Assembly: GCA_012520375.1 (NCBI GenBank)
Contig: JAAYOH010000080.1
Span: 1-39,793 of the forward strand
Length of the DNA: 39,793 nt
Reading direction: 5' to 3'
From: Clostridiales bacterium
GTDB taxonomy: Bacteria > Bacillota > Clostridia > Christensenellales > Aristaeellaceae
Shown one piece after another: positions 1 to 11,157 of this stretch. Position 1 is the first letter of the stretch, and every line of letters starts with the position of its first letter. Below the pieces are notes generated by a model, which worked only from the letters and a program-made list of their open reading frames with translations, was not told the origin of the DNA and did no database searches. A program made the translations under genes and the position numbers.

Positions 1-740
1 ACGTCCAGGAGCCCGCATTCACGGACCAGTTTGTCGGGAAGAAGGGCCCCTTCGCCTTCGGCGAGGGTGTGGAAGCCGTGACCGGGGCCACCGTGTCCTC
101 GAACGCGGCCCTTGACGCCCTGAACAGTTTGTTCGCTGCAGAAGAAGCTGCGGAAGCGCCCGCTCTTGAACCCTTGAGCGCTTCCAGCCAGGGCTTCGGC
201 GGGCCCGTGGAGGTCACCATCACATTGAATGCGGACGGCGCCATCGCCACCCTGGAAGTCGGGGGCGAAGGGTTCGCCGAGACGCCGGGCATTGGAACCA
301 ACGTCCAGGAGCCTGCATTCACGGACCAGTTTGTCGGGAAGAAGGGCCCCTTCGCCTTCGGCGAAGGCGTGGACGCCGTGGCCGGTGCTACCGTGTCCTC
401 GAACGCGGCCCTTGACGCCCTGAACAGCCTGTTCGCTGCAGAAGAAGCTGCGGAAGCGCCCGCTGCCGAACCCTTAAGCGCCTCCAGCCAGGGCTTTGGC
501 GGGCCCGTGGAGGTCACCATCACATTGAATGCGGACGGCGCCATCGCCTCCCTGGAAGTCGGGGGCGAAGGGTTCGCCGAGACGCCTGGGTTGGGTACCA
601 ACGTTCAGGAACCTGCATTCACGGACCAGTTTGTCGGGAAGAAGGGCCCCTTCGCCTTCGGCGAAGGCGTGGACGCCGTGGCCGGGGCCACCGTGTCCTC
701 GAACGCGGCCCTTGACGCCCTGAACAGCCTGTTCCAGTAA
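1..740 (+). CDS. Tandem RnfG/NqrC-type FMN-binding domain protein (5' end outside window)
   Basis: The reading frame is open from the first base, so the N-terminus, and any signal peptide or membrane anchor, lies upstream. The visible 245 residues hold one partial and two complete copies of a domain of about 80 residues, joined by Ala/Glu-rich linkers in an exact 100-residue period. Each copy ends in GATVSS, the ApbE-type flavinylation motif of RnfG and NqrC. The predicted FMN-bearing threonines are the codons at 90-92, 390-392 and 690-692. ETPGIG or ETPGLG and FTDQFVGKKG also match the RnfG domain. In the known family these proteins carry covalent FMN outside the cytoplasm and pass electrons. 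The gene lies 20 bp upstream of the DUF1622 gene and the rnf genes. I infer that it replaces RnfG as a multi-flavin carrier; the domain call is firm, the role is not proven. Confidence 0.85.
   Translation, partial: VQEPAFTDQFVGKKGPFAFGEGVEAVTGATVSSNAALDALNSLFAAEEAAEAPALEPLSASSQGFGGPVEVTITLNADGAIATLEVGGEGFAETPGIGTNVQEPAFTDQFVGKKGPFAFGEGVDAVAGATVSSNAALDALNSLFAAEEAAEAPAAEPLSASSQGFGGPVEVTITLNADGAIASLEVGGEGFAETPGLGTNVQEPAFTDQFVGKKGPFAFGEGVDAVAGATVSSNAALDALNSLFQ
1..740 (+). repeat. Near-identical 300-bp in-frame tandem repeat
   Basis: Units 1-300 and 301-600 are complete, and 601-740 is the start of a third unit that ends with the stop codon. The period is exactly 300 bp, which keeps frame and adds 100 residues per unit. 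Over the first 60 bases, unit 1 differs from unit 2 at one position and from unit 3 at three. Such identity implies recent duplication or ongoing gene conversion. The array runs off the left edge, so the true copy number is unknown, and short-read assembly could have collapsed it. Confidence 0.95.
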
Positions 741-1090: not shown

Positions 1091-1108
1091 TATTTGGGGG
1101 TGTTGGAA

Positions 1109-2443
1109 TTGCCGAAATTGACATTCCGCGGGGGCGTGCATCCGATGCGAGGCGCGCATGAGGGAAAGATTCCCACCCGCAACCAGCCGATCCGGGACTT
1201 TGTCTCCGATCGGGTGGCTATTCTGATGGGCATGCACCTGGGTGCGCCCTCCAAGCCCTGCGTCGCCAAGGGCGACCGCGTGCTGATGGGCCAGCTGATC
1301 GGTGAGCCCGTGGGGCCGCTGGGGGTGGCGGTACACGCCAGCGTATCCGGGAACGTGACCGCCGTAGAGCCCATCCCTTACATGACGGCGGAGCCGATGA
1401 TGTGCGTGAGCATCCGAAACGATTTCAAGGATGAGTGGGTGGAGCTGAATCCCCTGGGCAACGTGGAGACCTGCGATCCCGCCCTCATCGTGCCCGCCAT
1501 CAAAGAGGCCGGCATCTGCGGCATGGGGGGCGCGGCTTTTCCCACCCACGTGAAGCTGACCTGCCGGGAAGGAGCCACCTGCGACACCATCATCCTGAAC
1601 GGCGTCGAGTGCGACACCCACCTCACCGCGGACCACCGGCTGATGCTGGAGGAGCCCGCGCGCATCGTGGACGGGCTGCGGGCAGCGATGCGGGCCCTGG
1701 ACGTGAAGCGGGGCGTGATCGCCATCGAGGACAACAAGCCCGAGGCCATTGAGGCCATGAGCAAGGCCATTGAAGGCCGGATCGGCGTAGAGGTGGCGGT
1801 GCTGAAGACCAAGTACCCCCAAGGCTGTGAGAAACAGCTGATCAAGTCAATCACCGGCCGGGAAGTGCCCAGCGGAAAACTGCCTGTGGACGTGCACACC
1901 ATCATGTTGAACGTGGCCACCGCCCACGCCATAGCGGACGCGGTCATCGACGGCAAGCCTTTGGTGGAACGCATCACCACGGTGACCGGCTGCGTGCTGG
2001 AACCCGGCAACCTGCGCATGCGGGTGGGGACCTACCTGTGCGATGCCATCGGGGAGTGCGGCGGCTATTCCGAATACCCGGGCAAGATCGTCTGCGGCGG
2101 CGGCATGACGGGCACCTGCGCCCCGAACCACGACGTGCCCACCACCAAGGCCACCAACGGCATCGTGGTGTTCAACAAGCCGGATTCCCGCTCGGTGGAG
2201 GAGGGGCCCTGCATCCGCTGCGGCCGCTGCGTAGAGGCCTGCCCCATGGGGCTGAACCCCTACCTGATCAAGCACCACTGCGACATGGCCAAGTGGGACG
2301 AGGCCAAGAAGCTGAACCTGCTGGACTGCACCCTGTGCGGCTGCTGCTCCTACGCCTGTCCCGCCCGTCGCTGGCTGACGGCTTCCTTTAAGGTAGCCAA
2401 AGCAAACCTCGCGATCGCAGCAGAAAGGGGGAAGGCGCAATGA
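1109..2443 (+). CDS. rnfC: Rnf complex subunit RnfC (NADH-binding, iron-sulfur)
   Basis: RnfC is the peripheral subunit that exchanges electrons with NAD(H) in the ion-pumping ferredoxin:NAD oxidoreductase. The 444-residue protein starts with the typical KLTFRGGVHP segment, has the nucleotide/flavin-fold GMGGAAFPTHVKL near residue 140, and ends with two four-cysteine clusters: CIRCGRCVEACP from about residue 368 and CTLCGCCSYACP from about 407. Length is normal for the family. I chose the TTG at 1109 because GGGGGTG lies 6 bp upstream and the product then begins close to family members. In-frame TTG or GTG codons at 1094, 1100 and 1103 are alternatives. The stop overlaps the rnfD start (ATGA), so the two are translationally coupled. 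Confidence 0.93.
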   Translation: MPKLTFRGGVHPMRGAHEGKIPTRNQPIRDFVSDRVAILMGMHLGAPSKPCVAKGDRVLMGQLIGEPVGPLGVAVHASVSGNVTAVEPIPYMTAEPMMCVSIRNDFKDEWVELNPLGNVETCDPALIVPAIKEAGICGMGGAAFPTHVKLTCREGATCDTIILNGVECDTHLTADHRLMLEEPARIVDGLRAAMRALDVKRGVIAIEDNKPEAIEAMSKAIEGRIGVEVAVLKTKYPQGCEKQLIKSITGREVPSGKLPVDVHTIMLNVATAHAIADAVIDGKPLVERITTVTGCVLEPGNLRMRVGTYLCDAIGECGGYSEYPGKIVCGGGMTGTCAPNHDVPTTKATNGIVVFNKPDSRSVEEGPCIRCGRCVEACPMGLNPYLIKHHCDMAKWDEAKKLNLLDCTLCGCCSYACPARRWLTASFKVAKANLAIAAERGKAQ

Positions 2444-3369
2444 GGCTACGTCTTTCCACGCTCCCCCACATCCGTTCGGGGGAGACCACGACCACGCTGA
2501 TGCTCAACGTGCTGATCGCGCTTGTCCCCTGCGTGATCGCCGGCATCTACAACTTTGGCTGGAACGCGGCCATGCTGATGGCCGTGTGCATGGGAACGGC
2601 CATCCTCAGCGAGTATCTGTTCCAGCTGATCGCCAGGCGTCCGGTGCGGGTGGGGGATCTGTCCGCCCTGGTCACCGGCCTGATCCTGGCCCTGAACCTG
2701 CCCTCCTCCGCGCCCTGGTGGATGGCGGTGGTGGGTTCTGCCTTCGCCATCGTCATCGTGAAGGAACTGTTCGGGGGCATCGGCTCCAACTTCATGAACC
2801 CGGCCCTCACCGCCCGGGCGGTGCTGCTGGCTTCCTGGCCCGTGATGATGACCGCCTACGTCAGCCCCACCTACTGGCAGCAGGGCGTGGACGCGGTGAG
2901 CAGCGCCACCCCCCTGGGAGGCCTGAGCGCCTCCTACCTGGACCTCTTCCTGGGCCGGATCCCCGGCTCCATCGGCGAGGTCAGCAAGGTGATGATCCTG
3001 GTGGGCCTCGTCTACCTGATCATCAGCCGCACCATCACCTGGCACATCCCGGTGTGCATGGTGGGCTCTGCCTTCCTCTTCAGCTGGATCTTCGGCGCCG
3101 ACCCGGTGGCGGCCATCCTGTCCGGCGGTCTGCTGTTCGGCGCGGTGTTCATGGCCACCGACTACACCACCTGCCCCATGACCTTCAAGGGCCAGGTGAT
3201 GTACGCGGCGGGCTGCGGCCTGATCGTGGCGGTGATCCGGGCCTTCGGCAGCTATCCCGAGGGCGTCACCTACGCCATCCTGCTCATGAACATCGTTACG
3301 CCGCTGATCGACAAGTACGTGCGGCATCGCGTATACGGCCATGGAAAGGGGGAAAAGCACAATGGCTGA
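2440..3369 (+). CDS. rnfD: Rnf complex membrane subunit RnfD
   Basis: RnfD is an integral membrane subunit that carries covalent FMN and takes part in ion translocation. This 309-residue protein is highly hydrophobic, with many membrane spans, and contains GGIGSNFMNPALTARA near residues 112-127. It also has the flavinylation motif SSATPLG at 154-160, with Thr157 the expected FMN site. Length is close to the family norm. The start ATG overlaps the rnfC stop. The next gene starts 8 bp before this stop codon, so there is no room for rnfG, which follows rnfD in the usual C-D-G-E-A-B order. Confidence 0.93.
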   Translation: MRLRLSTLPHIRSGETTTTLMLNVLIALVPCVIAGIYNFGWNAAMLMAVCMGTAILSEYLFQLIARRPVRVGDLSALVTGLILALNLPSSAPWWMAVVGSAFAIVIVKELFGGIGSNFMNPALTARAVLLASWPVMMTAYVSPTYWQQGVDAVSSATPLGGLSASYLDLFLGRIPGSIGEVSKVMILVGLVYLIISRTITWHIPVCMVGSAFLFSWIFGADPVAAILSGGLLFGAVFMATDYTTCPMTFKGQVMYAAGCGLIVAVIRAFGSYPEGVTYAILLMNIVTPLIDKYVRHRVYGHGKGEKHNG

Positions 3370-3994
3370 CAACAACAGGAGCATCGGCAGCGTATTCCTC
3401 GACGGTGTGATCACCGAGAACCCGACTTTCCGCCTGGTGCTGGGCATCTGCCCCACCATTGCCACCACCACCAGCGCCATCAACGGCCTGGGCATGGGGG
3501 CGGCGGCTACTTTCGTCCTGATCGGCTCCAATGCCGTGATTTCCCTGCTGCGCAATTTCATTCCCGACAAGGTGCGCATCCCCGCTTTCGTCGTGGTCAT
3601 CTGTACCTTCGTCACCATGGTGCAGTTGCTGATGCAGGCTTTTGTCCCCTCCCTGTACGACGCCTTGGGCATGTTCATCCCCCTGATCGTGGTGAACTGC
3701 ATCATCCTGGCCCGGGCGGAGGCCTTCGCCAGCAAAAACGGGGTGCTGCCCTCCATCGTGGACGGGCTGGGCATGGGCGTCGGCTTCACCGGCGCCATCA
3801 CCCTGATGGGCTGCGTGCGGGAGCTGATCTCCTCCGGCTCCATCTTTGGCCTCAACGTCCTGAGCGCGGGCTACCAGCCCATGCTGCTCATCGGCATGGC
3901 CGCCGGCGGATTCATGGTCTTCGGGCTGTCCCTGGGGGCTTTCAACCTGATCGTCAACCGCGTTGAAAAAAAGAAGGGAGGCGTTAAGGCGTGA
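3362..3994 (+). CDS. rnfE: Rnf complex membrane subunit RnfE
   Basis: RnfE and RnfA are homologous six-helix membrane subunits that together bind an iron-sulfur centre within the membrane. The product has 210 residues from the ATG at 3362, which has an AAAGGGGG site about 8 bp upstream; an in-frame ATG at 3341 would add seven residues but has no such site. Recognisable features are ITENPTFRLVLGICPT at the N-terminus and LGMFIPLIVVNCIILARAEAFA in the centre. The gene overlaps rnfD by 8 bp and rnfA by 4 bp, giving a tightly coupled operon. Confidence 0.92.
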   Translation: MADNNRSIGSVFLDGVITENPTFRLVLGICPTIATTTSAINGLGMGAAATFVLIGSNAVISLLRNFIPDKVRIPAFVVVICTFVTMVQLLMQAFVPSLYDALGMFIPLIVVNCIILARAEAFASKNGVLPSIVDGLGMGVGFTGAITLMGCVRELISSGSIFGLNVLSAGYQPMLLIGMAAGGFMVFGLSLGAFNLIVNRVEKKKGGVKA

Positions 3995-4575
3995 ACGAGA
4001 TCCTGCGCATCCTGCTGTTCATGGTCAGCTGTGTGCTGTCCCACAACTTCATTTTCTCCCGCTTTCTGGGCTGCTGTCCCTTTCTGGGGGTGTCCAACAA
4101 GGTGGGTACCGCGGCGGGCATGGGCCTGGCGGTCACCTTCGTCATGGGCCTGGCCTCCCTGTTTACCTATGTGGTGTACCATTTCATCCTGGTGCCTTTG
4201 CAACTGACCTACCTGGACACCATCAGCTTTATCCTGGTGATCGCAGCCCTGGTGCAGTTCGTGGAGACCTTCCTGAAGAAGAGCTCTCCCAGCCTGTACA
4301 ACGCCCTGGGCATCTATCTGCCGCTGATCACCACCAACTGCGCCGTACTGGGCGTGGCGGTGCTCAACGTGTCCGAGGGATACAACCTGCTGTACAGCGT
4401 GCTGAACGGCGTGTTCGGCGCCCTGGGCTTCCTGTTGGCCATCGTGCTCATGGCGGGGGTCCGGGAGCGGCTGGAACTGGCCGACATTCCCAAGTGCCTA
4501 AGGGGGTTCCCCATCGGCCTGATCATTGCGGGTCTCATGTCCGTGGCCTTTATGGGCTTCTTGGGCCTGGCGTAG
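3991..4575 (+). CDS. rnfA: Rnf complex membrane subunit RnfA
   Basis: This 194-residue membrane protein is homologous to RnfE and has six expected spans. It contains NFIFSRFLGCCPFLGVSNK near residues 19-37 and LGIYLPLITTNCAVLG in the middle, both typical of RnfA; Cys residues in these segments belong to the intramembrane iron-sulfur site shared with RnfE. Translation starts at a GTG that overlaps the rnfE stop (GTGA). The length matches the family. It is followed after 15 bp by rnfB, which has its own ribosome-binding site. Confidence 0.93.
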   Translation: MNEILRILLFMVSCVLSHNFIFSRFLGCCPFLGVSNKVGTAAGMGLAVTFVMGLASLFTYVVYHFILVPLQLTYLDTISFILVIAALVQFVETFLKKSSPSLYNALGIYLPLITTNCAVLGVAVLNVSEGYNLLYSVLNGVFGALGFLLAIVLMAGVRERLELADIPKCLRGFPIGLIIAGLMSVAFMGFLGLA

Positions 4576-4590
4576 GGGAGGAGGAATACT

Positions 4591-5376
4591 ATGCAGATCA
4601 TTCTTGCCACGCTGGTGCTGGGGGGGATCGGCCTGATCTTCGGGGTGCTGCTCACCGTGGCCAGCAAAAAGTTCCATGTGGAGGTAGATCCACGCATCGA
4701 AGAAGTGAGTTCGTACCTGGCGGGGGCCAACTGCGGCGCCTGCGGGTATCCTGGCTGTGACGCCTGTGCCCAGGCAGTGGTGGAGGGCAAAGTGGGGGCC
4801 GATTGCTGCCCGCCCGGCGGTGCCAGGGCGGCGGAAGGCATTGCCAAGGTCATGGGCCTGGACGCCGGCTCCCTGGTGCCCATGGTGGCCCGGGTGCTGT
4901 GCCAGGGCAACATCGGCGTGGCACAGGACCGCTACATTTACGACGGATACCGCAGTTGCCTGGCAGCGGCGGGCATCGCCGGCGGCCCCAAGGCCTGCCA
5001 CTTTGCCTGCATCGGCCTGGGGGATTGCGTAGATCAGTGCGCCTTCGGAGCGGTGTCCATCAAGGGCGGCGTGGCCTGGATCGATGCCGCCAAGTGCACG
5101 GGCTGCGGCAAGTGCGTGGACGCCTGCCCCCGGTCCGTGATCAGCCTGTTCCCCATGGACGCCAAGGTGCTGGTGCGCTGCCGCAACATGGAGCCTGCAA
5201 AGCTGGCCAATGCGGAGTGCATGCGCAGCTGCATCGGCTGCGGCCGCTGTGTGCGCACCTGCAAGTACGACGCCATCCAGGTGGTGGACGGCTTTGCCCA
5301 TATCGATCTGGACAAATGCACCCGCTGTGGGGATTGCGCCGAGGTCTGCCCCCACAAGTGCATCGTGGTGACGTGA
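4591..5376 (+). CDS. rnfB: Rnf complex polyferredoxin subunit RnfB
   Basis: RnfB accepts electrons from reduced ferredoxin on the cytoplasmic side. The 261-residue protein has an N-terminal membrane anchor (about residues 3-24). A 4Fe-4S domain follows, with C48, C51, C56 and C73 in the CGACGYPGC context. After it come four more cysteine clusters: a C-x3-C-x5-C-x3-C cluster, CTGCGKCVDACP, CIGCGRCVRTCK and CTRCGDCAEVCP. This is the normal multi-cluster form seen in clostridial RnfB. A strong GGGGAGGAGG site precedes the ATG. The following FAD synthetase gene begins two bases after this stop, so the pair is probably translationally coupled. Confidence 0.94.
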   Translation: MQIILATLVLGGIGLIFGVLLTVASKKFHVEVDPRIEEVSSYLAGANCGACGYPGCDACAQAVVEGKVGADCCPPGGARAAEGIAKVMGLDAGSLVPMVARVLCQGNIGVAQDRYIYDGYRSCLAAAGIAGGPKACHFACIGLGDCVDQCAFGAVSIKGGVAWIDAAKCTGCGKCVDACPRSVISLFPMDAKVLVRCRNMEPAKLANAECMRSCIGCGRCVRTCKYDAIQVVDGFAHIDLDKCTRCGDCAEVCPHKCIVVT

Positions 5377-5378
5377 GA

Positions 5379-5924
5379 ATGGACCATTTGAAGCTGACCA
5401 TGCCCAGCGCGGTGGCGCTGGGCATGTTTGACGGTATGCACATCGGCCATCGGCGGGTGATTTCCCGAACCGTGGAGATCGCAAAGGAGCAGGGCTGGCA
5501 GAGCGTGGTGTACACCTTTTCCAACCATCCCCGCTCTGTTTTCGCCCAGGCGCCCGAGCCCCTGATGGACGCAGTTCAACGGGAGGCGGTCATGCGGAGC
5601 CTGGGGGTGGAACGGGTGGACATGGTGACCTTCGACCGGGAAATGGCCTCCCTGAGCCCCGAGGCCTTTCTGGAGAGCCTGACAGCCCGCTACCGGCTTT
5701 GCGCCATCGTATGCGGAAGCGATTACACCTTTGGCTGCAAGGGCGCCGGAAATGTGGACCTTTTGCGGGAACTTGCGCCTCGATTTGGTTACAGCCTGTA
5801 CGTGGTGCCCTTCGTGATGCTGGAAGGGGAGAAAGTGTCCTCCACCCGCATCCGGGAAGCCCTGTCCCGGGGCAACAGCGAGCTGGCGGACAAGATGTTG
5901 GGGAAAAACTGCCAGACATATTGA
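5379..5924 (+). CDS. Stand-alone FAD synthetase (FMN adenylyltransferase) domain protein
   Basis: The 181-residue protein matches only the N-terminal half of bifunctional RibF. It shows the nucleotidyltransferase motif GMFDGMHIGH near residue 15 and SSTRIREAL near the C-terminus, and stops there; the riboflavin kinase domain that would bring RibF to about 300 residues is missing. The expected reaction is FMN plus ATP to FAD. It begins 2 bp after rnfB with no clear ribosome-binding site, so it is likely coupled to rnfB. ApbE enzymes use FAD as the donor for covalent FMN. I therefore infer that this gene supplies FAD for maturation of RnfD and the upstream FMN-binding repeats. No apbE is visible in the window. 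Confidence 0.85.
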   Translation: MDHLKLTMPSAVALGMFDGMHIGHRRVISRTVEIAKEQGWQSVVYTFSNHPRSVFAQAPEPLMDAVQREAVMRSLGVERVDMVTFDREMASLSPEAFLESLTARYRLCAIVCGSDYTFGCKGAGNVDLLRELAPRFGYSLYVVPFVMLEGEKVSSTRIREALSRGNSELADKMLGKNCQTY

Positions 5925-5950
5925 CCCAAAGGCAACCATTATGTTAGAAT
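5921..5950 (+). promoter_or_regulatory. Sigma-70-type promoter for the ribose-type importer operon
   Basis: TTGACC at 5921-5926 and TAGAAT at 5945-5950 are separated by 18 bp. The -35 box overlaps the stop codon of the FAD synthetase gene, and the first gene of the importer starts about 34 bp after the likely transcription start. It would give the importer expression independent of the rnf operon. Confidence 0.6.
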
Positions 5951-5990
5951 GATTAAGACGTGTTGTGGCGAAAGAGGCCAAGGAGGGCAT

Positions 5991-7481
5991 ATGCAGCAGC
6001 TTCTCTACATGGAAGGCATCGACAAGAACTTCCCGGGGGTGCGGGCACTGAAAAGCGTGTCCCTGGATATCCGCCCCGGGGAGGTGCACGCCCTGATCGG
6101 GGAGAACGGAGCGGGCAAGTCCACCCTGATGAAAATCCTCTCCGGGGCCTACAAAAAGGACGCGGGGCGCATCTTCTGGCAGGGGCAGGAGGTGGAGATC
6201 GACTCTACCACCCGGGCGGCGGAACTGGGCATCTCCATCATCTATCAGGAGTTGAACCAGATGCCCAACCTGTCGGTGGCGGAGAATCTGTTTGTGGGGC
6301 GGGAGCGCAGAAAGAACCGCTTCCTGCTGGACCACAAGCGCACCCTGGAAGAGGCGCAGGTCTTCACCCGGCGGGTGGGCCTGGACGTGGACGTGCGGAC
6401 CCTGTGCAGCGAGCTGTCCATCGCCCAGCGGCAGATGGTGGAAGTGGCCAAGGCCCTTTCCTACAACGCTAGGCTGATCATCATGGACGAGCCCACCTCT
6501 TCACTGACCGACCGGGAGACCGACATCCTGATGGACCTGATCCGAAAACTCAAGGACGAGGGCGTGTCCATCGTGTTCATCTCCCACAAGCTGAACGAGG
6601 TCTTTGCCATCGCGGACCGGGTCACGGTGCTGCGGGACGGGGAACTGGCGGGCTGCGTAGAAACGAAGGACTGTGACGAGGAAACGCTGATCCGCATGAT
6701 GGTGGGCCGGGAACTGACGGACCTGTTCCCCAAGAAAGAGGTGCCCATCGGGGATGTGACCCTGTCGGTGGAGGGATTAAACGCGGGCAAGGCGGTACAG
6801 AACGTGTCTTTTACCGTGCGGGCCGGGGAGATCCTGGGCTTTGCCGGACTGGTTGGGGCGGGGCGCTCCGAGACCATGCGGGCCCTGTTCGGCATCGACA
6901 GGATGGATTCGGGAAAGATCTGGGTGGACGGCAAAGTGTTGTCCGGACACCAGCCCACCGAGGCCATCGAGGCGGGGCTGGGCTTCGTGCCCGAAGACCG
7001 CAAGCTTCAGGGCCTGATCCTGGGCATGACGGTGCGGGAGAACACCACCCTGGCCGCCATGGAAGAAACCAAGGTCAACCACATGGTGAACCGGAAAAAA
7101 GAGGTGGAAATCACCCAGGAGTACGTGGACCGGCTGGGCATCCGCACCCCGGGGGTGGAACAGAAGGCGATGAACCTGTCCGGGGGCAACCAGCAGAAGG
7201 TGGTCATCGCCAAGTGGCTGGCCACGGATCCCAAAGTGCTGATCCTGGACGAGCCCACCCGGGGCATCGACGTGGGGGCCAAGAAGGAGATCCACCTGCT
7301 CATGGGGGAAATGACCGCCCGGGGCGTTGCGGTGGTGATGATCTCCTCAGAGCTGCCGGAAGTACTGGGCATGTCGGATCGGATCATCGTCATGCACGAG
7401 GGCAGCGTCCGGGGCGAACTGAGCCGGGAAGAAGCCACCCAGGAACGGGTCATGGAACTGATCTTCTCCACCAAGGTATAG
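5991..7481 (+). CDS. Ribose/galactose-type ABC importer, double ATPase subunit (RbsA/MglA family)
   Basis: The 496-residue protein has two ABC domains, as in RbsA. Domain 1 has Walker A GENGAGKST near residue 38, a signature region LSIAQRQMVEVAKAL and Walker B LIIMDEPTSSL. Domain 2 has a degenerate Walker A (GLVGAGRSE), the signature LSGGNQQKV and Walker B VLILDEPTRGIDVGAK. The degenerate second site is usual for this family. The ATG at 5991 has AAGGAGG about 5 bp upstream and is preferred over an in-frame ATG at 5949, which overlaps the promoter. Permease and binding-protein genes follow in the order A-C-B. The substrate is a sugar or sugar-like molecule that cannot be named from sequence. 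Confidence 0.9.
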   Translation: MQQLLYMEGIDKNFPGVRALKSVSLDIRPGEVHALIGENGAGKSTLMKILSGAYKKDAGRIFWQGQEVEIDSTTRAAELGISIIYQELNQMPNLSVAENLFVGRERRKNRFLLDHKRTLEEAQVFTRRVGLDVDVRTLCSELSIAQRQMVEVAKALSYNARLIIMDEPTSSLTDRETDILMDLIRKLKDEGVSIVFISHKLNEVFAIADRVTVLRDGELAGCVETKDCDEETLIRMMVGRELTDLFPKKEVPIGDVTLSVEGLNAGKAVQNVSFTVRAGEILGFAGLVGAGRSETMRALFGIDRMDSGKIWVDGKVLSGHQPTEAIEAGLGFVPEDRKLQGLILGMTVRENTTLAAMEETKVNHMVNRKKEVEITQEYVDRLGIRTPGVEQKAMNLSGGNQQKVVIAKWLATDPKVLILDEPTRGIDVGAKKEIHLLMGEMTARGVAVVMISSELPEVLGMSDRIIVMHEGSVRGELSREEATQERVMELIFSTKV

Positions 7482-7502
7482 ACGACAAGGAGGCCAATGG
7501 CT

Positions 7503-8531
7503 ATGAAGACTGCCAACGGAACCGAATCCAAGGGCGCCCCCTCTTTTATCAGGCGCGTCCAGCAGGTCAGCGTATTCAACATCGTGCTGATCCTGGCGGG
7601 CATGTGCCTGCTCCTCTCCATCGCCGTTGGGGGCAAATTCCTGTCCGCCACCAACATCACCTCGGTGGTGCGGCAGTTCTCCTTCTACGCCATCATGGCC
7701 ACGGGCATGTTGCTGGCGATCATCACCGGGGGCATCGACTTGTCCTCGGGCTCGGTCTTCGCCTTTTCCAGCATCATCACCTGCCTGTTCATCGCCAAGT
7801 GGGACATCCCCCTCTTGACGGGGATGCCGGTGCTGCTGCGGGTCATCCTGGGGGTGCTGTTGGGCATGCTGTCCGGCGCGGCTTTCGGATATCTGAACGG
7901 CGCCCTGATCACCCTGCTGAAGCTGCCCCCCTTCATCGCTACCCTGGGGACCATGTCCATCGCCAGGGGCCTGTCCTACGGCATCACCGGGGGCTATCCC
8001 ATCGGCAGCCTGCCGGACCAGTTCAAGTTCATCGGGCTGGGCACCATCGGCGCGGGCTCGGTACAGATCCCTACCCCCATCATCCTGATGGTGGTGCTGG
8101 CCCTGCTCTTTTCCTTCTTCCTGCGAAAGACCATCCTGGGGCGCTGGGTGTACGCCATCGGCGGCAACGAGGAGGCCGCTCGCATCGCAGGCGTTCGGGT
8201 GGATCGCACCAAGCGTATCGTGTACGCCCTGTGCGGGCTCATGTCGTCCATTGCGGGCATCGCCACGGCGGCCCGGCTGGGTGTGGGCCAGTCCACGGCG
8301 GGCCAGGGCTACGAGATGGACGCCATTGCGGCGGTGATCATCGGCGGCGCCTCGGTGAACGGCGGCGTGGGTACGGTGCTGGGCTCGGTGCTGGGCGCGG
8401 CCATCATGGGCGTGCTGCGCAACGGACTGGTGCTGCTGAACGTGTCCGCCTACTGGCAGCAGGCGGTGCTGGGCGTGGTCATCGTGGTGGCGGTATCTTT
8501 CGACAAGCTGCAGCACGACCGGAAGAAATAA
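7503..8531 (+). CDS. Ribose-type ABC importer permease (RbsC family)
   Basis: The product is a polytopic membrane protein of about 342 residues, of the family that forms the homodimeric channel of ribose-type importers. Diagnostic stretches are ITGGIDLSSGSVFAFSS, LPPFIATLGTMSIARGL and VYAIGGNEEAARIAGV, all at the expected places. AAGGAGG at 7487-7493 lies 9 bp before the ATG at 7503 but only 3 bp before the ATG at 7497, so I chose 7503; the difference is two residues. It lies 21 bp after the ATPase gene and precedes the binding-protein gene in the same operon. Confidence 0.9.
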   Translation: MKTANGTESKGAPSFIRRVQQVSVFNIVLILAGMCLLLSIAVGGKFLSATNITSVVRQFSFYAIMATGMLLAIITGGIDLSSGSVFAFSSIITCLFIAKWDIPLLTGMPVLLRVILGVLLGMLSGAAFGYLNGALITLLKLPPFIATLGTMSIARGLSYGITGGYPIGSLPDQFKFIGLGTIGAGSVQIPTPIILMVVLALLFSFFLRKTILGRWVYAIGGNEEAARIAGVRVDRTKRIVYALCGLMSSIAGIATAARLGVGQSTAGQGYEMDAIAAVIIGGASVNGGVGTVLGSVLGAAIMGVLRNGLVLLNVSAYWQQAVLGVVIVVAVSFDKLQHDRKK

Positions 8532-8544
8532 TGGTGAAACTCTT

Positions 8545-8560
8545 CCCCCGTTCAAGGGGG
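8545..8560 (+). other. Small intercistronic hairpin before the binding-protein gene
   Basis: CCCCC (8545-8549) and GGGGG (8556-8560) can pair with a six-base loop between the permease stop and the binding-protein ribosome-binding site (AAAGGAGG, 8571-8578). No T-run follows, so it is not a terminator. It may affect mRNA stability or relative expression. Confidence 0.3.
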
Positions 8561-8586
8561 CTGAGAAATAAAAGGAGGTTATACTC

Positions 8587-9540
8587 ATGAAAAAGGTTCT
8601 CTCTTTCCTGTTGGTGGCATTGCTGGTGCTGGGCGCAAGCTCTGCATTTGCCGAAGAGGTGGAGATCGCCGTGGTCCCCAAGGCTCTGGACAACGCCATC
8701 TTCCTGGACGCCAAGACGGCTGCCGAAGAAAAGGGCGCCGAACTGGGCGTCAAGATCTACTGGGAAGGCTCTCCCACATCGGATGCCGCTGCCCAGGTGA
8801 ACGTCATCGAGTCCCTGATCGAGCGTCAGGTGGACGGCATCCTGATCAGCTGCAACGACGCGGACGCCCTGAAGGACGTCATCGACCGCGCCGTGGATGC
8901 CGGCATCGCGGTGGGCTGCTTCGATTCCGACTCCCCTGAATCCAAGCGCGCCTTCTACTGCGGCACCGACAACTATGCCATTGGCAAACTGTCCGCCGAG
9001 TACATGATGGAGTACCTGCCCGAGGGCGGCAAGGTGGCCATCCTCACCGGCGTACTGGGCGCCCCCAACCTGGAGATGCGCATCACCGGCTTCAAGGAGA
9101 CCCTGGCCGCTGCCGGCAGCCCCATCGAAGTGCTGCCCGTGCAGACCGGTGAGGACGACGTGCAGAAGTCCGTGGAGGTCGTCTCCCAGTTCACCGCCGC
9201 CAATCCCGACCTGGCCGGCTGGTTCTTCGACGGCGGCTGGCCCTATTTTGCCGACCCCGATGCCCTGCCCGAAGTGAAGGCCTTCATGGAGAGGGGCGGC
9301 CGCATCGTATCCATCGACACCTGCGAGCCCATGATGCAGTATGTAGGCCTTGGGATGGTGGACATCCTGATCGGCCAGAACTACCCCACCATGGGCGCCC
9401 TGGGCGTGGAGACCCTGTACAAGATCATCAAGGGCGAAGAGGTGGACCTGGGCGACGAGACCAACTACATCGACACCGGCTACGAGATCGTGGACATCAA
9501 CAACTACGAAGAAGTGTGGGCGGGCAAGGCGCCCTGGTAA
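8587..9540 (+). CDS. Periplasmic-binding-protein-like sugar-binding protein of the ribose-type importer
   Basis: The 317-residue protein begins with a Sec signal peptide (MKKVLSFLLVALLVLG, then cleavage after AFA near residue 22). There is no lipobox cysteine, so it is not an obvious lipoprotein, which is unusual for a Gram-positive binding protein. The mature part is a type I binding fold of the ribose/rhamnose/autoinducer-2 group, with GVKIYWEGSPTSDAAAQVNV near the N-terminus and VDGILISCNDADALKDVID following. An AAAGGAGG site is 8 bp upstream of the ATG. It is the third gene of the importer operon. The ligand is unknown. Confidence 0.88.
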   Translation: MKKVLSFLLVALLVLGASSAFAEEVEIAVVPKALDNAIFLDAKTAAEEKGAELGVKIYWEGSPTSDAAAQVNVIESLIERQVDGILISCNDADALKDVIDRAVDAGIAVGCFDSDSPESKRAFYCGTDNYAIGKLSAEYMMEYLPEGGKVAILTGVLGAPNLEMRITGFKETLAAAGSPIEVLPVQTGEDDVQKSVEVVSQFTAANPDLAGWFFDGGWPYFADPDALPEVKAFMERGGRIVSIDTCEPMMQYVGLGMVDILIGQNYPTMGALGVETLYKIIKGEEVDLGDETNYIDTGYEIVDINNYEEVWAGKAPW

Positions 9541-9723: not shown

Positions 9724-11157
9724 ATGAAAAGACGGATTTCTCTGTTTATCGTCCTGGCGATGCTACTGGCCCTGTGTCCGGCCCTGGCAGAGAGCAGAGA
9801 CGAAACCGTGGACTTTGTGGTGGTGGGGGCCGGCGCTGCCGGTGTTTCCGCGGCCACCGAAGCAGCCCGCCAGGGGAAAAGTGTGATCCTGCTGGAAAAG
9901 CTCTCCTTTGCCGGCGGTTCCTCCGCACTGAACGAGGGATTTCTTTGGGCCTGTGGGTCGGACTTCAATGCCCTCACCGGCAAGGGATACAGCAAGGAAC
10001 AGATGAAGACTTACCTGCGGGAATCTTCCCGGGGGAATGCCAACCACGCGCTGAACGACAACATCGTCGATATGTCTGCCGAGATCATGGACTTCATCGT
10101 GGAGGGCGGCGCAAAATTCTACACCGACAAGTTCACCCCCAGCGGTGCAGATGCCCGGGACTTGGACGTTTTCATGGCTGAAGGTGCTGGGCACAGCTTG
10201 TTCAATGCCCTGCTGGCCATAGCCGAGAGGTACGGAGTGATTCCCCGCTACGAGAGCCCAGCCGTGGCGTTGATCGTTGAAGAGGGCGCCGTCAAAGGCG
10301 TGACGGTACAGGACGCCCAGGGCACTTACAATATCTATGCTCAGCATACTATCCTAGCCACGGGGGGCTTCCTTCAGAGCGATGAACTGATGGATCGGTT
10401 CATGCCCGAGTGGAACTCGGAATACCCCTACTGCACGGCGGGCGCTACCGGAGACGGCCACAAGTGGGCCCTGGAATTGGGAGCGTACATGTCGGGCTAT
10501 GGTTGTGGAGGGGTCTGGCGGACCGAGGACGGAAAGAACGGCTACCATGTGGAAGGCGGATTGGCACCCGTTCTCAGCTTTTTCATGGTAAATATCGAGG
10601 GGAACCGCTTCTGCAACGAATACATGGGAGCCGACAAGAACCAGTTGATCAATATGCAGACCGGCAAAAAGGCCTACTGCTTTGCGGATGCCAACAGCCC
10701 ATACGTGGCGCTATTGGAGCAGGGCGTTGCCAACGGCTATGCTTACAAAGCGGATACCCTGGAAGAATTGTGCGACGTTTACGGCATCCAAAAAGACAAT
10801 CTCCTGGCTTCTGTGGAGGCATACAATAAGTGCAAGGCGGAGGACGGCCAGGATCCCTTCCAGGTACCCCTTGCCTACATGACCAGCATGACCACAGCGC
10901 CCTACTATATGAGCCTGTATGATCCGGCTATGAACACGAACTGCCTGATGGGCTTGGCGACCGATGCTTATTGCCGGATCCTCAGGGAGGACGGCAGCGC
11001 AATCGATGGCCTCTATGGCGCTGGCGAGATCATCATGGGCAATCTGTGCGGCGGCACGACCGCAGGGCCCCGCTATCCCGCCTGCGGCAGCTGCCTGGCG
11101 GCCGGCATCTATGGCGGACCGTTGGCGGTACGCCATGCACTGGGCATCATAGGATAA
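9724..11157 (+). CDS. Secreted FAD-dependent fumarate-reductase-like flavoprotein
   Basis: The 477-residue protein has an N-terminal signal peptide (residues 1-22, ending ALA) followed at once by a dinucleotide-binding motif, GAGAAG at 35-40 with Glu58 of the FAD fold. Later features are LATGGF, NIEGNRFCNE and the C-terminal GLYGAGEI segment, which place it in the FAD_binding_2 family (fumarate reductase, urocanate reductase and ketosteroid dehydrogenase relatives). It lacks its own FMN-binding domain, so electrons must come from a partner. The usual fumarate reductase ending GANRLGGN is replaced by AGPRYPACGS, which argues against simple fumarate specificity. AAAGGAG lies 9 bp before the ATG. 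The gene is separated from the importer by 183 bp and ends at a bidirectional terminator. The acceptor is unknown. Confidence 0.82.
   Translation: MKRRISLFIVLAMLLALCPALAESRDETVDFVVVGAGAAGVSAATEAARQGKSVILLEKLSFAGGSSALNEGFLWACGSDFNALTGKGYSKEQMKTYLRESSRGNANHALNDNIVDMSAEIMDFIVEGGAKFYTDKFTPSGADARDLDVFMAEGAGHSLFNALLAIAERYGVIPRYESPAVALIVEEGAVKGVTVQDAQGTYNIYAQHTILATGGFLQSDELMDRFMPEWNSEYPYCTAGATGDGHKWALELGAYMSGYGCGGVWRTEDGKNGYHVEGGLAPVLSFFMVNIEGNRFCNEYMGADKNQLINMQTGKKAYCFADANSPYVALLEQGVANGYAYKADTLEELCDVYGIQKDNLLASVEAYNKCKAEDGQDPFQVPLAYMTSMTTAPYYMSLYDPAMNTNCLMGLATDAYCRILREDGSAIDGLYGAGEIIMGNLCGGTTAGPRYPACGSCLAAGIYGGPLAVRHALGIIG

Follow-up and report, generated by a model that had tools for sequence, protein, structure and literature searches.

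A probable multidomain RnfG with young distal FMN_bind units at an rnf locus of a Clostridiales bacterium

The stretch of DNA that we analyzed (the window) comprises positions 1 to 39,793 of contig JAAYOH010000080.1 in Clostridiales bacterium assembly GCA_012520375.1 and is designated contig C40 of genome G000 below. It opens inside a gene for tandem, nearly identical FMN_bind domains, upstream of rnfC, rnfD, rnfE, rnfA, and rnfB. The evidence supports assignment of this array as RnfG-type, and it probably forms the distal portion of an RnfG subunit in an Rnf complex. As we discuss below, a probable front half of the gene lies on a second contig (C53) of the same genome, the distal units are young, and the number of domains differs among related species. 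Among named organisms, the closest relative is Candidatus Excrementavichristensenella intestinipullorum.

The C-terminal end of the array gene occupies positions 1–740 of the forward strand, where a frame open from the first bases of the window (3–737) terminates at a stop codon at 738–740. Tandem Repeats Finder reported a period of 300 for the array, with 2.4 copies, 94% matches, no indels, and a score of 1307; apart from the array, it listed just a short 18-nt repeat (score 56) in the window. Over 300 nt, unit 1 departs from unit 2 at 21 positions; over 134 nt, unit 2 departs from unit 3 at 4 positions, every one of the latter at a third codon position. Overall, the units are 93–97% identical in DNA, differ mostly at third codon positions, and keep the reading frame intact. 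The fragment matched Pfam FMN_bind with an E value of 4.6e-34 and 117.3 bits (cutoff 22). These results bear out the tandem array of near-identical units with an exact 100-residue (300-nt) period proposed in an initial annotation of this DNA, although the three domains counted there proved to be two and a half: complete domains at 195–431 (residues 65–143) and 495–731 (residues 165–243, the last of the protein), and merely the C-terminal half of a domain at 3–131 (residues 1–43). Each unit consists of an FMN_bind domain and a linker of ~20 residues, the linkers between distal domains being rich in Ala, Glu, and Pro, and the frame ends two residues after the last domain and thus has no C-terminal anchor. 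A candidate match to the TonB C-terminal domain (PF03544) was rejected at 21.7 bits, below the cutoff of 24.6. The array was expected to continue past the window edge, and the frame is indeed open there; because base 1 of the window is also the first base of the contig, the missing part of the gene falls in an assembly gap.

Multiple lines of evidence support the RnfG-type identity. The profile of a 28-row alignment of units found the solved RnfG 7zc6_G as its best match (E 3.2e-18). A model of the last unit from a 28-row alignment had a pLDDT of 92.8 and matched ten PDB chains at E ≤0.001, comprising seven NqrC proteins, two RnfG proteins, and domain 1 of CbFMN4, with NqrC 8a1u_C and 4u9s as the best structural matches. 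A model of the whole 245-residue fragment (7 rows; pLDDT 65.5, pTM 0.37) was uninformative on domain packing. Together with the rnfCDEAB genes directly downstream and the front-half alignment over the length of RnfG described below, the profile match and fold agree with the RnfG/NqrC-like identity first suggested, and the structure comparison with RnfG proposed at that time gave NqrC and RnfG as the best folds. On the basis of gene order and the full-length alignment, we reject a stand-alone flavoprotein unrelated to Rnf.

All genes discussed next lie on the forward strand. A small DUF1622 protein (PF07784; 761–1090) is encoded between the array and rnfC, and it is followed by rnfC (1094–2443; TIGR01945, 474.1 bits, cutoff 245.95), rnfD (2440–3369; TIGR01946, 320.3 bits, cutoff 207.05), rnfE (3341–3994; TIGR01948, 232.9 bits, cutoff 213.4), rnfA (3991–4575; TIGR01943, 255.4 bits, cutoff 229.3), and rnfB (4591–5376; TIGR01944, 100 bits, cutoff 68.7). 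All five genes (1094–5376) pass their own rnf cutoffs, and RnfD carries its own flavinylation-type stretch, DAVSSAT. No rnfG stands between rnfD and rnfE in the window; because these two genes adjoin, the array, with its N-terminal half very probably on another contig, is the sole rnfG at the locus. Immediately beyond rnfB, a stand-alone FAD synthase without a riboflavin kinase part is encoded at 5388–5924; it is the only PF06574 match in the genome, and the sole riboflavin kinase match is on contig C95. Sugar-type ABC transporter genes (ATPase, permease, and binding protein) fill 5949–9540, between the FAD synthase and an FAD_binding_2 (fumarate-reductase-like) flavoprotein at 9724–11157, which has a signal-peptide-like N-terminus (judged by eye) and is a candidate electron acceptor. 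Ten PF00890 matches in the genome reach E 4e-30 or better, including one inside the window, and all are candidate acceptors. A search of the genome for Omp85 gave zero matches, which fits a single-membrane cell.

Where is the front of the array gene? A search of the same genome with the array protein found close units outside C40 on C53 only. The last 2.4 kb of C53 contain apbE (L038 5254–6252), which is the only ApbE match (PF02424) in the genome, then a 27-bp gap, and then an FMN gene (L038 6280–7605) that runs off the contig end and encodes an RnfG-like hydrophobic N-terminus (judged by eye) followed by three FMN_bind domains. The first 197 residues of this protein, aligned from residue 9, cover positions 2–185 of the 187 in the rnfG profile TIGR01947 (E 2.6e-25). 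Against the TIGR01947 cutoff of 102 bits, these residues alone score 89.6 and the window fragment scores 84.2, whereas the whole front half attains 167.2 solely as a total over three stretches. In protein sequence, the third C53 domain shares 92 and 95% identity with the two complete window domains, and it clusters with them in a tree of domains (99 SH-aLRT). In two relatives, G012 (11 domains) and G120 (6 domains), apbE, the FAD synthase gene, the array, DUF1622, and rnfCDEAB are contiguous in that order on one contig each, and in G000, G001, G011, and G010 a separate contig carries an array's front half preceded by apbE. We found no overlapping bases between the ends of C53 and C40. Because the contig ends lack shared bases, we infer the join from the grouping of the third C53 domain, the RnfG alignment, the single apbE, and the contiguous order in G012 and G120, and on this evidence C53 and C40 very probably carry parts of one gene. 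With three domains in the C53 frame and two complete domains plus a partial one in the window, each part encodes more than one FMN_bind domain, and the joined gene would hold at least six. The initial annotation had raised the matter of an export signal or membrane anchor, and the hydrophobic N-terminus of the probable front half, in line with the RnfG profile, speaks in favor of its claim. FAD is the substrate of ApbE (ApbE review), and thus the locus would encode a substrate maker, a flavin transferase, and an acceptor protein.

The flavinylation motifs of the array are partly those anticipated. All three window domains have the predicted GAT, but only the first (TGAT at 81–92) fits the strict motif [S/T]GA[S/T], with AGAT in the other two (381–392 and 681–692). 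The C53 domains read TGAS, AGAT, and AGAT, and thus GA followed by Thr or Ser is present in all six visible domains, with the preceding Ser/Thr changed to Ala in four. The AGAT sequences of this gene are a common variant and no oddity, being read in 35 of 203 domains from 51 genomes. Later domains of arrays (n = 172) have [ST]GA[ST] in 111 cases, another letter before GA[ST] in 35, other sequences with Thr/Ser kept in 23, and none of these in 3; the corresponding numbers for first domains (n = 31) are 5, 1, 22 (with Thr kept), and 3. In these 22 first-domain variants, Gly is replaced and Thr is kept (TAAT in 15, TSAT in 5, and ASAT in 2). The membrane-proximal domain therefore tends toward a motif unlike that of distal domains. 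The family motif has been given as DxxxGAT (BBA Adv, 2023; PMC10339131), and a Gly-to-Ala change in a test protein left roughly 50% flavinylation (ApbE review). Most units are probably flavinylated, although two of the three visible window motifs are AGAT. No CxxCH heme motifs are present in the window and C53 parts of the array, which flank the unseen middle.

How general is this arrangement? We sampled 150 genomes of the family, one per species, 132 of which gave RnfC matches of E ≤1e-60. Fifty-six genomes encoded an RnfC at least 50% identical to that of the window, and 55 of them supplied one related locus each; G084, with a partial RnfC match, was left out. In 40 of the 55 loci, the FMN frame nearest rnfC has at least two domains. 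By a script rule, this frame was complete within the contig in 28 loci, ran off the contig in 24, and had no domain in 3, namely G055 (one domain, missed through overlapping frames), G016 (where the contig ends and L041 is the probable front half), and G021. Complete frames contain 1 domain (8 frames), 3 (3 frames), 4 (2 frames), 5 (3 frames), 6 (8 frames), 7 (2 frames), 9 (1 frame), or 11 (1 frame), and any of these numbers could be shortened by assembly. The rule left uncounted a second adjacent FMN frame in G070, G097, and G132. Among the eight single-domain frames, those of G070, G132, and G139 may be broken or shortened, as the second frame adjoins the single-domain frame in G070 and G132, and genus relatives of G139 show at least six domains. 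A gene of the rnfC-to-rnfB core was not detected in 7 of the 55 loci.

The variable copy number suggested initially is thus supported between species, with 1 to 11 domains in contig-complete frames from genomes taken one per species. Related species also differ, with 11 domains in G012 compared to 6 in G120, and complete frames from genus g20 hold 5, 6, 6, 6, and 7. Whether unit number would also change within a species seems to us an evenly balanced question. In a tree of RnfC sequences, genera g2 and g55, in which RnfG has one domain, make up a clade (support 99; six genomes) nested in a larger, mostly multidomain clade (support 99), and extra domains are therefore not needed by every such pump. 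The single domain of g2 and g55 may be a reduction.

Arrays and FMN_bind domains also occur in other settings in the family. An RnfG with eight FMN domains, six of them near-identical, occupies the canonical position between rnfD and rnfE on a 3.97-Mb contig (L161 11805–14585; G042), and L159 has an array of at least six domains in the same position, indicating that arrays arise between rnfD and rnfE too. A seven-domain FMN_bind protein on a 177-kb contig (L042 4648–7278; G015:C13) includes five units of 94–97% DNA identity with a 120-residue period, one unit having TSAT instead of TGAT, and no rnf gene was detected in the 17 kb around it. Among 12 examined loci with the other RnfC type of the family, rnfD is followed directly by rnfE in seven (L155, L156, L157, L158, L160, L162, and L163). 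These seven apparently lack rnfG, as the stretch examined yielded no FMN_bind domain, although an 831-residue frame with one motif adjoins rnfC in L158; their rnfG may be located at another genomic site or have diverged beyond the reach of the profile. In L164, L165, and L166, an FMN_bind domain is fused to the RnfD frame, and the open reading frame after rnfB in L164 (14500–17319) encodes three FMN domains and four CxxCH motifs.

The genes that accompany the array are less constant. A relative of the FAD synthase was detected in 25 of the 55 related rnf loci and ApbE in only 9; in 19 related loci with complete array frames, ApbE was not detected. DUF1622 precedes rnfC in 12 of the 55 loci (11 by the script rule, and G012 by eye). 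We also inspected 40 regions around DUF1622 genes, drawn from 60 places, and found six Rnf loci, four loci with apbE and a fumarate-reductase-like gene, and 30 regions with no reference gene detected alongside. With only 6 of 40 regions being Rnf loci, we reject DUF1622 as an Rnf-specific partner. The four loci of the second kind (L088, L089, L090, and L093) come from four species of one genus, and their fumarate-reductase-like gene has two FMN domains, making this a second link between DUF1622 and flavinylation.

The RnfG domain is conserved, and the distal units turn over by lineage. In the domain tree (79 columns and 102 rows, with a few-column warning and 46 of 99 inner branches open; L054 and L055, which share contigs with L039/L040, as well as L062, one L060 frame, and partial domains, are omitted), 22 rows, mainly the RnfG-type domains of arrays, cluster with L061, whose RnfG has a single domain (support 89, not starred). 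Outside this cluster fall the single-domain RnfG of L063, on a long branch, and the first domains of L045 and L050; L057, L058, and L059 have their RnfG-type domain at a later position in the array. Distal domains mostly cluster by genome. A count of nearest relatives by identity, which drew on the 203 complete domains from 51 genomes, was restricted to genomes supplying three or more (182 of the 203), and scored first domains of arrays cut by a contig edge as later domains, gave a nearest relative in the same genome for none of 24 first domains and for 87 of 158 later domains; the other later domains had theirs within the same genus (56 of 158) or elsewhere (15 of 158).

Synonymous divergence leads to the same view. 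Among distal units of G000 (window plus C53), dS is 0.14–0.28, and among those of G001 it is 0.28–0.36, compared to values between G000 and G001 of 0.45–0.81 for rnfA–E, 0.73 for apbE, 0.79 for DUF1622, 0.93 for first domains, 0.89 for second domains, and 0.71–1.40 for distal units. Because dS is lower within each genome than between the species, the distal units of each genome are younger than the G000/G001 split. Of the recent homogenization proposed at the outset, the recent turnover is supported by dS, unit identity, and nearest relatives, but the young units may stem from new duplication or from conversion, which are indistinguishable here. Turnover is not universal, as units correspond position by position across the two species of genus g47 (G109 and G149).

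We propose that the locus has the order apbE, multi-FMN rnfG, DUF1622, rnfC-D-E-A-B, and FAD synthase, and was split by assembly within the repeats into C53 and C40. The membrane-anchored first domain would perform the usual job of RnfG, relaying electrons between the cluster of RnfA/E and the FMN in RnfD. Flavinylated by the neighboring ApbE, the distal domains would form a beads-on-a-string chain on their linkers, and this chain would carry some Rnf electrons across the cell wall toward extracytosolic acceptors, for example the fumarate-reductase-like flavoproteins of the genome, with units being gained, lost, or homogenized within lineages. Beads-on-a-string models appear in a 2024 mSystems paper, and a bifurcated electron path with a second branch to extracytosolic acceptors was proposed by Meheust et al. 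(2021; PMC8238504). Taken whole, from a distal RnfG array through a flavinylated chain and outward branch to unit turnover, we regard this explanation as somewhat better than an even bet, with the outward branch itself close to a toss-up. Counting against it are the sub-cutoff TIGR01947 score of the RnfG part of the front half, the four AGAT motifs among six, the lack of overlap between C53 and C40, the scarcity of ApbE at related loci, the nested single-domain clade, and the position-wise conservation of units in genus g47. A bolder extension seems improbable to us, namely that unit recombination alters the number of FMN domains within a species, such that electron reach through the wall would differ between cells as the RnfG domain stays constant.

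The distal FMN domains might instead serve as an electron buffer, storing and releasing electrons for Rnf itself near the RnfD/RnfE sites and passing none to outside acceptors. Linkers and near-identical units could let several flavins visit one docking site, and the frame ends after the last unit with no cell-wall-binding or acceptor domain. Distal units are nevertheless unlikely to dock like RnfG, given that the RnfG-type domain differs from them and mostly groups apart, and the ten strong PF00890 matches are possible acceptors; neither point is decisive, and we consider a buffer doubtful but the most credible of the rivals. Less credible still is a largely neutral expansion of repeats by slippage or recombination, in which the extra units are tolerated and have no role beyond the normal one of RnfG. 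The spread from 1 to 11 units in complete frames, the nested clade that manages with one domain, and the lineage-wise turnover would all fit such an expansion. However, dN/dS is ~0.12 between the two complete window domains, which argues that the units are maintained as proteins, the script pattern for the Ser/Thr motif matched 197 of 203 domains, and the prevalence of at least two domains in the frame nearest rnfC likewise suggests selection for working domains.

Mis-assembly of a contig-end repeat is the least probable reading, and we give it very little weight. The array does lie at a contig end, as do the 24 array frames that run off their contigs in related loci, but near-identical repeats break assembly and thereby account for such ends. 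Moreover, the unit differences noted above, mainly at third codon positions with the frame intact, speak against an artefactual repeat, and relatives hold arrays well inside contigs, including the seven domains of L042 and the eight of L161. Because assemblies often break within these genes, domain numbers in databases may be underestimates.

If the proposed chain conducts, then in these bacteria Rnf would supply an outside reductase in addition to its normal work as a closed ferredoxin-NAD pump, and fermentation would be linked to respiration without cytochromes. Arrays of 1 to 11 domains on related pumps also constitute a natural length series, which makes the function of multi-flavinylated proteins directly testable.

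Comparison with known systems places the array in a published class. RnfG is described as having one covalent FMN and a switching role (RNF review). Canonical RnfG proteins (7zc6_G of C. tetanomorphum and 9eri_G of A. woodii) have an N-terminal anchor, an FMN_bind domain, an AETPGLG-type stretch, and a covalent FMN motif; the array gene with its probable front half likewise has FMN_bind domains and such a stretch, along with a putative anchor and putative FMN motifs. The canonical proteins have one domain and the order rnfC-D-G-E-A-B (seen in L061 and L063), whereas the gene here precedes rnfC and, provided that C53 and C40 belong together, has six domains or more. NqrC proteins, which supply the best structural matches of the unit model, are single-domain subunits of Na+-NQR, and the neighbors of the array pass rnf rather than nqr cutoffs. 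SaFMN3 and CbFMN4, both exported, resemble the array in joining three and four FMN_bind domains, respectively, within a single protein, and SaFMN3 carries three FMN by mass, but the account of these proteins, where it bears on this point, does not describe them as Rnf subunits (BBA Adv, 2023; PMC10339131). Domain 1 of CbFMN4 (8p2b) matches the fold of the unit model with 27% identity across the structural alignment. The initial annotation had set the array apart from the single domain of RnfG; the difference in domain number holds on the same condition that C53 and C40 are joined, but the class itself was known. Meheust et al. (2021; eLife, PMC8238504) reported multi-flavinylated proteins with up to 13 sites, including multi-flavinylated RnfGs with several FMN_bind domains in RNF clusters, among them those of Christensenellales. 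In the open-licence PMC literature, we came across no account of how units turn over in such arrays, of an association between DUF1622 and Rnf, or of linkage to FAD synthase, and we found no experiment on the present protein. The Christensenellales subset that PMC8238504 singles out carries a multi-heme domain, unlike the visible, CxxCH-free array frames here, and in comparison with the systems set out in that paper, the young near-identical units, the linkage to FAD synthase and DUF1622, and the gene order are features of the present locus. To a published class, our analysis adds an anatomy of conserved RnfG domain and young distal units, variation at the species level, and a self-contained flavin supply locus.
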